From assembly GCA_947476195.1 (NCBI GenBank), contig CANJPT010000016.1:1-49738 (forward strand): a stretch of DNA of 49,738 bases. Reading direction: 5' to 3'. Shown here piece after piece: positions 45,135-48,346 of the stretch. The position numbers and the translations under genes are program-made. Below the pieces are notes generated by a model. It searched no databases. It was not told the DNA's origin and was given only the letters and a program-made list of their open reading frames with translations. Position 1 is the stretch's first letter. Each line of letters starts with the position of its first letter. The stretch comes from Lewinellaceae bacterium (lineage in GTDB: Bacteria > Bacteroidota > Bacteroidia > Chitinophagales > Saprospiraceae).

Positions 45135-45174
45135 CAATCTTAAAACAAGATGTTTTTTTTAAAAAACATTTGTT

Positions 45175-45182
45175 TATATTTG
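45175..45182 (+). promoter_or_regulatory. -7 promoter element TATATTTG of recQ
   Basis: Exact TAnnTTTG match. It overlaps the beginning of the open frame that starts with TTG at 45170, so translation must start further downstream. Confidence 0.6.
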
Positions 45183-45256
45183 CACCTGAAACCTCCTACC
45201 AGGCTGAACGCATTGCCACCATTGACCACCTTAACCAAATTGACCACATTGACCCA

Positions 45257-47398
45257 GTGAACCTCTCTAACGCTCTTGCTGCCCTAAAGAAATATTTCGG
45301 TTATGACCAATTCCGGCCATTACAATCAGACATTATTCAAAATGTCTACAATGGCCGAGACACCTTGGTTCTAATGCCTACAGGCGGCGGCAAAAGTGTC
45401 TGTTTTCAAATTCCAGCCATTACGCTGGAAGGCGTAACTGTTGTTGTATCCCCGCTCATTGCTTTAATGAAAGATCAGGTGGAAGGGCTGAGCGCCAATG
45501 GAATTCCGGCTGCATTTATCAATAGTAGCATGAGTTCAGAGCAGCAGCGGAATGTTGAGACAGCACTGCTGGCAGGTTACCTCAAGCTCCTTTATGTAAG
45601 TCCGGAAAAACTCGTATCACAAAGTTTTCAGCCTTTGCTTAAAAGTTTGAATATCAGTCTTTTTGCAATTGATGAGGCGCATTGTATCTCTTCATGGGGC
45701 CATGATTTTCGACCGGAGTATACCCAGCTGAAATTCCTAAAAAACCAATTTCCTGGTATCCCACTGATCGCCCTTACGGCTACAGCCGATAAACTCACCA
45801 GAAAAGACATTGTGGAGCAATTGGATTTATCTGACCCCTTAGTGTTCATTGCCTCCTTCGACCGACCTAATATCAGCCTCAGCATCCGCCCAGGCCAAAA
45901 GCGTTTTGAACAGATCGTAGAATTCTTAAAGGAACACAAAAACCAATCCGGCATCATTTATTGTCTCTCCCGAAAGGGATGTGAAGGTTTAGCGGAGAAA
46001 CTAAATTCAAAGGGATTCCGGGCAGCCCACTACCACGCCGAGGTGCCGGCAGCCTTACGCAGCAAGGTGCAGGAGGATTTTATTAATGACCGGACCCCCA
46101 TTATCTGTGCCACCATCGCCTTCGGTATGGGCATTGATAAAAGTAATGTTCGTTTTGTCGTGCATTACAATCTCCCACGCAATCTGGAGGGATATTATCA
46201 AGAGATCGGAAGAGCAGGGCGTGATGGGCTAAATTCGGATGCCTTATTGTTTTTTAGTTACGCCGACCTGATCTCTTATCGGGAAATGATCGAGCAGGGC
46301 GAGGCAAGCGCCGAGCAGAAAGATCTGAAACTGGCAAAACTGGAACGGATGTATCAGTTTGCCGAAGCCCCTGTCTGCCGCCGAAAAACAGTACTCAATT
46401 ATTTTGGGGAGCCTTATGACAAGAGCTGTGGCAACTGCGATGTGTGTAAAAATCCGCCACAGCATTTTGACGGCACAATCGCAGCTCAAAAAGCACTCTC
46501 CGCGATCCTGCGTACCAATCAGCGAGTAGGGATGAGTTTACTTACCGATATCCTGCGTGGCAGCCAACGCCGCGAGATCATGGAGCACAACTACCATGAG
46601 ATTAAGACCTATGGGGCCGGTAAGGAATATGGATATGATGCCTGGCTTTTCCTGCTTTCTCAAATGTTGCATGTCGGTCTTATTGAGATCGCTTATGACG
46701 ACCATAATTGCCTCCGAGTAACCGCTGAAGGGAAGAAAATACTGCTGGAAGGAAAGAAAATATCGCTGGCAATGCCGCAGCTTAAACCAAAACCAGGTGA
46801 AAAAGCTACAATGCCCCGTGTCGTGGAAAAAAGCAAGACACAAATACTGCGCGAAGAATTGCAGCAACGTCTGATCGCATTGCGCAGGGATCTGGCCGTG
46901 CAACAAGGTATCCCACCATATACGCTGTTCAGCGACCTTACAATTCAGCAAATGGCTGATGCCCGACCTTTATCCGACCTGGAAATGCTGGAGATCACAG
47001 GGGTCAGCGAACGAAAACTCCAACTCTATGGTGATGCTTTCATGGGGGAGATCCGTCGTTTTGTGCTGGAAAAAACCGAAGCTGGTGAACGCGTTACTGG
47101 AAGTACCTATTTTATCAGTTTCGACCTTTTTAAGCGTGGACATACGGTAGCTGAAATTGCCGAACTCCGGGGTATCAGTATCCTAACCGTCATGGGACAC
47201 CTGGCTACAATGTATGAACGGGGCGAACTGATCAATCTGGAACAGTGGGTCAGCCCCGAAGAGTGCGATATTATTCAGGGTGCATTGACCCTTTTTGAAG
47301 AACCTTTCCAAATGAAAGCTTTGTACGAACATTTTGAAGAACGGTTCAATTACGATAAGATACGGCTGGCCATTGCCGATTTCAGAAGGAAGCAATAG
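45257..47398 (+). CDS. recQ: RecQ ATP-dependent DNA helicase
   Basis: 3'-5' helicase for recombination and repair. Helicase core: Walker A LMPTGGGKSVCFQIPA, DEAH box FAIDEAHCISSWGHDFRP, CATIAFGMGIDKSNVRFVVH and YQEIGRAGRDG. The RQC zinc site follows (CRRKTVLNYFG, CGNCDVCKNPP) with winged helix (TDILRGSQRREI). An HRDC domain (FSDLTIQQMADARPLSDLEM, then ITGVSE) and a further helix-turn-helix-like C-terminus (GHTVAEIAELRGIS) complete about 713 residues. The start is taken as GTG 45257, before NLSNALAALKKYFGYDQFRP; the open frame extends to a TTG at 45170, but that lies upstream of the -7 element. Confidence 0.93.
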   Translation: MNLSNALAALKKYFGYDQFRPLQSDIIQNVYNGRDTLVLMPTGGGKSVCFQIPAITLEGVTVVVSPLIALMKDQVEGLSANGIPAAFINSSMSSEQQRNVETALLAGYLKLLYVSPEKLVSQSFQPLLKSLNISLFAIDEAHCISSWGHDFRPEYTQLKFLKNQFPGIPLIALTATADKLTRKDIVEQLDLSDPLVFIASFDRPNISLSIRPGQKRFEQIVEFLKEHKNQSGIIYCLSRKGCEGLAEKLNSKGFRAAHYHAEVPAALRSKVQEDFINDRTPIICATIAFGMGIDKSNVRFVVHYNLPRNLEGYYQEIGRAGRDGLNSDALLFFSYADLISYREMIEQGEASAEQKDLKLAKLERMYQFAEAPVCRRKTVLNYFGEPYDKSCGNCDVCKNPPQHFDGTIAAQKALSAILRTNQRVGMSLLTDILRGSQRREIMEHNYHEIKTYGAGKEYGYDAWLFLLSQMLHVGLIEIAYDDHNCLRVTAEGKKILLEGKKISLAMPQLKPKPGEKATMPRVVEKSKTQILREELQQRLIALRRDLAVQQGIPPYTLFSDLTIQQMADARPLSDLEMLEITGVSERKLQLYGDAFMGEIRRFVLEKTEAGERVTGSTYFISFDLFKRGHTVAEIAELRGISILTVMGHLATMYERGELINLEQWVSPEECDIIQGALTLFEEPFQMKALYEHFEERFNYDKIRLAIADFRRKQ

Positions 47399-47559: not shown

Positions 47560-47685
47560 AAATAGAAAATGGCCCCGTCGCTCGTTTGCGCCAGGACCAG
47601 TTTTCCCTTGTATAATCTCATGAAAGTGTACGAATCTGTGATCAATCGTTCTCTTTACTTTACCTCGCTGTTCTCTCTGATTGAT
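47560..47685 (-). ncRNA. putative small RNA, copy 1
   Basis: Minus-strand RNA predicted from structure shared with the copy at 47884-48014. A closing stem ATCAATC (47685-47679) / GATTGAT (47647-47641) encloses a purine-rich loop; then a conserved 15-nt box TTTCATGAGATTATA (47625-47611); then a terminator hairpin, stem TGGTCCTGGCGC / GCGACGGGGCCA (all 12 pairs if G-U allowed), loop AAACGA, followed by TTTTCTATTT. A variant -7 element CACCTTTG sits directly upstream (47697-47690). No open frame of note. Confidence 0.6.
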
Positions 47686-47883
47686 GATACAAAGGTGAGG
47701 TCATTTTGGGCTGCTGTATAGGACAGCAAACCTTTTTGGGTCACCCAGTATTTTCAAAGTGTTTTTGGGTTAAAATTTAATTAAAACATTGATTATCAGG
47801 TTTTTAATGAAATTATTTTGCCACGTTTTACCACATAAAACCCTGCTTTTTTTGAAAAAAACCAAGATTTTGGTTCAAATAAG

Positions 47884-48014
47884 CACAAAAAAAACGCGGC
47901 GCTCGTTTGCGCCGCGTTCGGATTTCCCGTATATAATCTCATGAAAAATTTCAAATCAGGTTGTCAATGTTTCGCTCGTTGTTTCTCGTGCGCTGTCGTT
48001 ATCGCTTATTGACA
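47884..48014 (-). ncRNA. putative small RNA, copy 2
   Basis: Same plan as copy 1: closing stem TGTCAAT (48014-48008) / ATTGACA (47968-47962), GA-rich loop, box TTTCATGAGATTATA (47946-47932), then a perfect terminator stem AACGCGGCGC/GCGCCGCGTT with the identical loop AAACGA (47893-47918) and a run of T's. Upstream, TTTG-20 nt-CACTTTTG gives a Bacteroidota-type promoter with one mismatch in the -7 element (48025-48018). The stems differ in sequence from copy 1 but pair equally well. Confidence 0.65.
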
Positions 48015-48025
48015 GTACAAAAGTG

Positions 48026-48346
48026 CAGCAGTCTGTACCGCTCGACAAAGACATATTTAAAGGTTTGTTGAATTTTATTTCTTGGTTTAATATTGTCTAA
48101 AGCCAGAAATAAATTTATTTTTCTGAATAAAAAGGCAAAAAATACACCTAATGACCTGTTTAAAGCATTTAATTAATTCTATTTTGTTGAAAATAATATT
48201 GCAAAAAAGACCTTTTTATTGCTGAAAAATATTTTAATTCAATATAATGTGTGAATGAAATGCAATTGTCCAAGTGCTTTATAGCAGATACGTGACGTTC
48301 TTACACCATTTTTGTTGTCAGCTCTTTTTTCACAAAAAAAGCGGTG
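48026..48346. other. AT-rich gene-free spacer
   Basis: Between the second small RNA and the T9SS cargo gene. AT-rich, with the -33 part of the sRNA promoter near its left end; nothing else seen. Confidence 0.4.

Follow-up and report, generated by a model that had tools for sequence, protein, structure and literature searches.

Comparison with related genomes indicates that two putative small RNAs (sRNAs) on the minus strand of the window, the 49,738-nt stretch of Lewinellaceae DNA analyzed here, belong to a multicopy, structured RNA family that is real, specific to one genus, and absent from Rfam 15. Promoter-like sequence, a terminator, and non-coding character place its members, provisionally, among intergenic trans-acting sRNAs. 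We propose that these ~125-nt RNAs carry a box that acts as a seed, pairing over the start codons of target mRNAs and blocking ribosome loading. We lean toward this reading and regard its target model, which was added here, as a fair and testable prediction that is not established; the first-pass annotation of this DNA proposed no function.

Anatomy of the two window copies

Direct reading bore out the earlier description of two minus-strand copies, ~320 bp apart, built on one plan; their boxes are 321 bp apart. In both copies, the minus strand reads from a −7-like element through the 7-bp closing stem and its purine-rich loop to the box, which is followed by a GGGAA segment and a terminator. 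The features, with what each assignment is based on, are as follows.

45170 to 47398, plus strand: recQ-type helicase gene, convergent neighbor, 165 nt away (Pfam; neighbor clusters)
47560 to 47685, minus strand: sRNA copy b, closing stem to weak T-tract, ~126 nt (direct reading; covariance-model match, 100.1 bits)
47571 to 47598, minus strand: copy b terminator hairpin, loop as in copy a, one mismatch, weak T-tract (direct reading)
47611 to 47625, minus strand: copy b invariant box (direct reading)
47641 to 47647, minus strand: copy b closing stem, 3′ arm GATTGAT (direct reading)
47679 to 47685, minus strand: copy b closing stem, 5′ arm ATCAATC (direct reading)
47690 to 47697, minus strand: copy b −7-like element CACCTTTG (direct reading)
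47886 to 48014, minus strand: sRNA copy a, closing stem to end of T-run, ~129 nt (direct reading; covariance-model match, 128.9 bits)
47887 to 47918, minus strand: copy a intrinsic terminator, loop AAACGA, T-run (direct reading; helix 3 pairing)
47919 to 47929, minus strand: copy a short hairpin CGG-GAAAT-CCG (direct reading; helix 2, weakly supported)
47932 to 47946, minus strand: copy a invariant box TTTCATGAGATTATA, proposed seed (direct reading; family conservation)
47962 to 47968, minus strand: copy a closing stem, 3′ arm ATTGACA (direct reading; covariation)
48008 to 48014, minus strand: copy a closing stem, 5′ arm TGTCAAT (direct reading; covariation)
48018 to 48025, minus strand: copy a −7-like element CACTTTTG (direct reading; family TTTG)
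48046 to 48049, minus strand: copy a −33-like TTTG (direct reading)
48064 to 48071, minus strand: copy a upstream element TCAACAAA (family consensus near −50)

The first-pass annotation had also given both copies fully paired terminator stems with a shared loop, AAACGA. The shared loop stands, but full pairing does not in copy b, where one mismatch is present. Its upstream region differs from that of copy a and is missing TCAACAAA. Similarly, the count of two copies holds for the window, but the genome to which it belongs has at least four: exact boxes occur at four sites, all of them with the anatomy described above (the two window copies, C6:79917, and C51:32652). Box sites with two mismatches are at about the control level in this genome (8, versus 7 for the reversed pattern). 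One of these eight, GTTCATGGGATTATA at C21:37075, represents a class of elements in which this box is followed by a hairpin (L007 at this site, L213, L218, and L238); in the last three, the hairpin is terminator-like with the loop CAAATGAG. Three of the weakest among the 122 matches of the family covariance model (see below) are of this class, which is probably a sister RNA family.

Pairing and covariation in relatives

The earlier reading of the two copies as paralogous small RNAs with compensatory stems gained support from comparison across many relatives. In an alignment of 39 members, the closing stem is 94.0% paired and the terminator 98.9% paired, and covariation was above that of all slid controls, with none of 500 shuffles reaching it on any measure. 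In an alignment of 123 distinct members, which was fitted to the structure, 95.7% of the closing-stem cells and 99.4% of those of the terminator (helix 3) are paired, and covariation was likewise unreached by shuffles and above the slid controls. Two-sided changes among these members were found at 7 of 7 closing-stem pairs and 8 of 9 terminator pairs (15 of 16 together). Loss of pairing in relatives without compensation, which would have spoken against selection on RNA structure, was looked for and not seen.

The short helix that follows the box (helix 2) was paired in 61.7% of cases in the 39-member alignment and in only 75.4% in the 123-member alignment, so it is weakly supported. Minimum-energy folds of both window copies (z of −3.0 and −2.5) contained the terminator and lacked the closing stem, as did the RNAalifold structure. 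Evidence for the closing stem comes from the covariation counts.

Range and copy number of the family

A covariance-model search of relatives had been suggested in the first-pass annotation. The model used (R1), built from 39 members, matched 41 of 42 genomes of the genus, with 122 matches in total and 1 to 6 per genome; the single genome without a match is 82% complete. In an even sample of the order, all nine genus genomes were positive compared to none of the 289 other genomes; stricter filters were used for this sample, so weak relatives could be lost. The box itself, at one mismatch or less, was found in 35 of 36 other genus genomes (60 genomes searched), often several times per genome, and some of these matches are not sRNAs. 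In other genera, 10 of 23 genomes had the box, with one mismatch only, and none of the nine such loci that were fetched (L013 to L021) showed the sRNA anatomy. Scanning public genomes for the exact box returned at least 119 stretches; among the matches listed, the records with recognized anatomy were titled Saprospiraceae, Saprospirales, Chitinophagales, or (uncultured) Bacteroidetes/Bacteroidota. One of 57 regular-expression matches, in Aquimarina (L106), was a false positive and was left unused.

Members often occur in tandem, with two or more within 2 kb in 24 of 41 genomes. For instance, G005 (L235/L032, C5:124385-124906) has four copies at ~129-nt spacing, with a promoter-like element at the first copy only and a T-run at the last copy only, an arrangement that by its sequence has the look of a polycistronic array. 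We also considered and rejected transfer by phage or plasmid: viral contigs contained no exact 25-nt match, and blastn of copy a against phage and plasmid records gave no match.

Some stray sites were also noted. At L028 (G032:C87), an exact box immediately precedes a terminator whose sequence is quite different, and this site is outside the covariance-model matches. At L388 (G021:C11:58451), a near-box, TTTTCATGAGATTT, lies between direct repeats resembling a CRISPR array, possibly by chance.

Upstream regions and genomic neighbors

Among 120 distinct upstream regions of the family, TTTG at −7 was present in 113, and a further TTTG was found 20 to 32 nt before it in 60. In addition, the upstream regions have in common TCAACAAA near −50 (66 to 93% per base) and, ahead of the −33 region, a T-rich stretch; both are well conserved, which suggests shared transcriptional control of the family. 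The pattern fits what we take to be the Bacteroidota promoter form. By sequence, the predicted promoters would be of Bacteroidota type, and most members have a promoter-like sequence of their own, from which they are presumably transcribed. TAnnTTTG occurs in a Bacteroides transcriptome paper.

The recQ-type gene that converges on the window copies recurs in relatives. In 19 of the 40 genomes with flanks examined, that of the window among them, a member has such a gene at a distance of 3 to 520 nt (median, 31), locus L172 (G032) being excluded; this adjacency means that the site is probably old. On the opposite side of the window copies from recQ is a gene for a protein with a secretion-system sorting domain.

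Complementarity of the box to a conserved start region

Read as its reverse complement, the box TTTTCATGAGATTATA gives a start region, TATAATCTC-ATG-AAAA (referred to here as the anti-box). In the proposed mechanism, the 5′ end of the RNA would fold into the closing stem around the purine-rich loop, and the mid-RNA box would act as the seed, pairing over the start codon of target mRNAs (TATAATCTC-AUG-AAAA). This pairing would block ribosome loading and turn the target gene down. In relatives, the best predicted targets are an HYR-domain protein and short leader ORFs that precede genes for other probably secreted proteins.

Outside the sRNAs, anti-boxes with one mismatch pointed to one protein start (P0001) in three genomes, G007, G009, and G014. 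An HYR domain is present in a gene of this type (L322), and P0001 is probably secreted, judging from its N terminus. Fetched by protein similarity, P0001 orthologues had matches in 42 of 42 genomes, of which the 30 best loci were examined. Contiguous pairing of at least 10 bp through the ATG, with G-U allowed, was found in 19 of these 30, which share ancestry and are not independent samples, compared to 8 of 305 generic starts and 3 of 29 orthologues of a TonB-dependent receptor, reused as a control set (see below). Leaving out the three discovery genomes gave 16 of 27. At 12 bp or more, the counts were 9 of 30, 0 of 305, and 1 of 29, and the median duplex energies were −16.25, −10.4, and −10.7 kcal/mol, respectively. 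TCTCATG was found at none of 345 generic starts. The non-coding stretch from −7 to −1 showed 60% identity between P0001 orthologues, about as conserved as the coding part, whereas the stretch from −15 to −8 showed 36%; in the control gene, identity from −7 to −1 was 33%, unlike its coding part.

The pairing is not universal. It falls short of 10 bp in 11 of the 30 P0001 orthologues, though the family is present in 41 of the 42 genus genomes. In the genome of the window, one extra base disrupts the match at the P0001 start, and the duplex energy there (−12.4) is ordinary, equaled or bettered by 26% of generic starts.

Other candidates were tried and rejected. First, a global enrichment of anti-boxes was not convincing. 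In 10 genomes, 50 matches lay outside the sRNAs (80 minus 30 in sRNA copies) compared to 13 for the reversed pattern, but controls that keep ATGAAAA with the upstream part shuffled gave 41 and 32; exact anti-boxes numbered 7 versus 3 and 1 for these two controls. The excess over like-for-like controls is slight. Second, the only exact 12-nt anti-box outside the sRNAs in the genome of the window is at the start of a TonB-dependent receptor gene (L449; Pfam Plug), a tempting target because the Bacteroides sRNA FopS acts on such genes. The anti-box is not conserved there: the other 28 orthologues score 8.5 to 13, and the 3 of 29 reaching 10 bp include that of the same genome.

A separate observation concerns G014, where anti-box matches on two contigs (C397 and C437) lie symmetrically from both contig ends, which gives the contigs the look of large inverted duplications, likely artifacts of assembly.

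Short leader ORFs that start in anti-boxes

Further anti-boxes, forming a second set, stand at the start of short ORFs, and most of these ORFs run into strong intrinsic terminators. Leader ORFs starting in an anti-box were observed at L292 and L309, L291, L317, L318/L410, L319, and L320, further at L307, L288, L289, L398, L422, and L445, and less clearly at L419 and L421. They are 10 to 19 codons long (33 to 36 at L419 and L421), MK..CT is common to several of the peptides, and the hairpins behind the leaders at L419 and L399 are weak. Several leaders precede two genes, a small one (X) and a larger one, whose products are both probably secreted, as suggested by their N termini; a Pfam scan of copies of the two genes gave no match.

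Homologues of X were found by similarity in 29 of 42 genomes. Of the 29 upstream regions scored, 10 have a leader ORF starting in an anti-box, and it is missing from 19, including that of the window's own genome. The leader anti-boxes at L421, L422, and L445 have two to three mismatches and were outside the reach of the motif search. In four further X upstream regions, AATAATCT(T/G)ATGAAAA occurs near the gene, and in L423 the start region of X itself has TTTAATCTCATGACAA; little is seen in the remaining regions, that of the window's own genome among them.

The in-frame leader stop lies within 12 nt of the 5′ arm of the terminator in 12 of 15 leaders (of 19 examined, 4 had a weak hairpin or few Ts and were dropped; L416 and L417 are nearly the same). 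This placement is only suggestive, since 8 of 15 stops in the +2 frame are placed likewise and ATGA or GTGA invariably closes the +1 frame early. The leader ORFs are possible attenuators or sponge RNAs. In an attenuation scheme, which we regard as improbable, the sRNA would block translation of the leader ORF, the terminator at its stop would form, and the downstream surface-protein operon would go untranscribed, with tandem paralogues setting the dose.

Alternative explanations

The most conserved parts of the RNA are the box core, GGGAA, and the terminator loop CAAANGAG. Of the 123 distinct members, 105 have the exact box, a frequency to be read with caution, since the seed set was found partly through the box. 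Its TCATGAG core and CAAANGAG are ~100% conserved across the 123 members. In silico, the box is only moderately open (unpaired probability of 0.60 versus 0.47 for the whole RNA). It is conceivable, if rather doubtful, that TCATGAG and CAAANGAG are similar sites for one RNA-binding protein, which the many copies would titrate. Such a sponge would account for the conservation of both, as termination alone presumably needs no invariant loop, and for the retention of the box in genomes whose P0001 start has no complementarity. However, a search covering RRM_1 only found no candidate protein (RRM_1 was found in 4 of 10 genus genomes, including that of the window, and not in the other 6), and the conserved anti-box at P0001 and at the leader starts would be left unexplained.

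The box is found in other contexts too and the copies are often tandem, which would suit an element acting as DNA, such as a protein-binding or recombination site; compensatory changes in two helices, with promoter-like sequence upstream and a terminator downstream, point instead to RNA and make this very unlikely. A 6S-like RNA that binds RNA polymerase is harder still to sustain. The closing stem around a large open loop and the several copies would fit, but the most invariant part sits outside the closed loop, and neither 6S RNA nor any other Rfam 15 model reached its gathering score in the window copies. At that score, the whole window gave only a tRNA-Thr, and sub-threshold matches in the sRNA stretch look like chance, in agreement with the first-pass annotation, which knew of no named RNA family with this box in Bacteroidota. 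Least credible of all is a small-protein gene starting at the ATG in the box (ATG AGA TTA TA, read as MRLY or MRLYx by construction in exact-box members), as the box-to-GGGAA spacing varies (3 nt in 81 of 105 members and 1 nt in 17) and the terminator loop is spread over frames 0, 1, and 2 relative to this ATG, with counts of 25, 43, and 29, respectively, in the 97 among 105 exact-box members with a recognizable terminator loop. This scatter, with no conserved coding frame, argues for a non-coding family.

Comparison with known systems

To our knowledge, few sRNAs have been characterized in Bacteroidota, and no general sRNA chaperone is established there. In the open-licence literature, the box and core strings returned one unrelated human-RNA paper only, and searches on Saprospiraceae sRNAs and on conserved Bacteroidota sRNA families returned no relevant title among the matches listed.

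For the reading that we prefer, a seed that pairs over start codons, the nearest known kind is FopS and GibS of Bacteroides. As described in excerpts of two papers (PMC11697453 and PMC7366714), these sRNAs have a conserved seed that pairs near target start codons, and FopS has 14 copies that act mostly on susC-type outer-membrane transporter mRNAs. By analogy, the family may work like FopS, and we do not file it as a member. Like FopS as described there, it consists of multicopy paralogous Bacteroidota sRNAs, and like both, it shows complementarity between seed and start codon, in relatives though weakly in the genome of the window. There are also differences. First, the excerpts describe FopS by bands of ~65 to 70 nt and a 5′ seed, whereas the RNAs here would be longer (~125 nt), with a closing stem, and their seed would be internal; this description sets the two apart. 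Second, GibS is described as 145 nt with a largely unstructured 5′ part, unlike the shorter RNAs with a closing stem found here, and the GibS covariance model (RF04182) reached 19.5 bits, on the opposite strand, its cut-off being 115 bits. Third, the family here is often tandem and was found only in one Saprospiraceae genus. Finally, the family here is present in genomes with no detected RRM_1; association with the RRM protein RbpB counts toward membership in FopS/GibS.

The predicted action on leader ORFs resembles that of RyhB, which in an excerpt of PMC11550727 acts on the uof leader ORF of fur in Escherichia coli; in both cases, an sRNA is aimed at a short upstream ORF. The difference is that most leaders here are then followed by intrinsic terminators, which would suggest, as a prediction only, control of transcription read-through. 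Such a leader-ORF/terminator arrangement would be an unusual mode of sRNA action. With this comparison, Bacteroidota gain a well-supported RNA family that Rfam 15 lacks, together with a concrete and testable prediction of seed and targets for Saprospiraceae surface proteins, in a genus represented here by assembled genomes. Should the pairing be real, paralogous sRNAs that target start codons, as seen in gut Bacteroides, would have evolved in Bacteroidota on more than one occasion.
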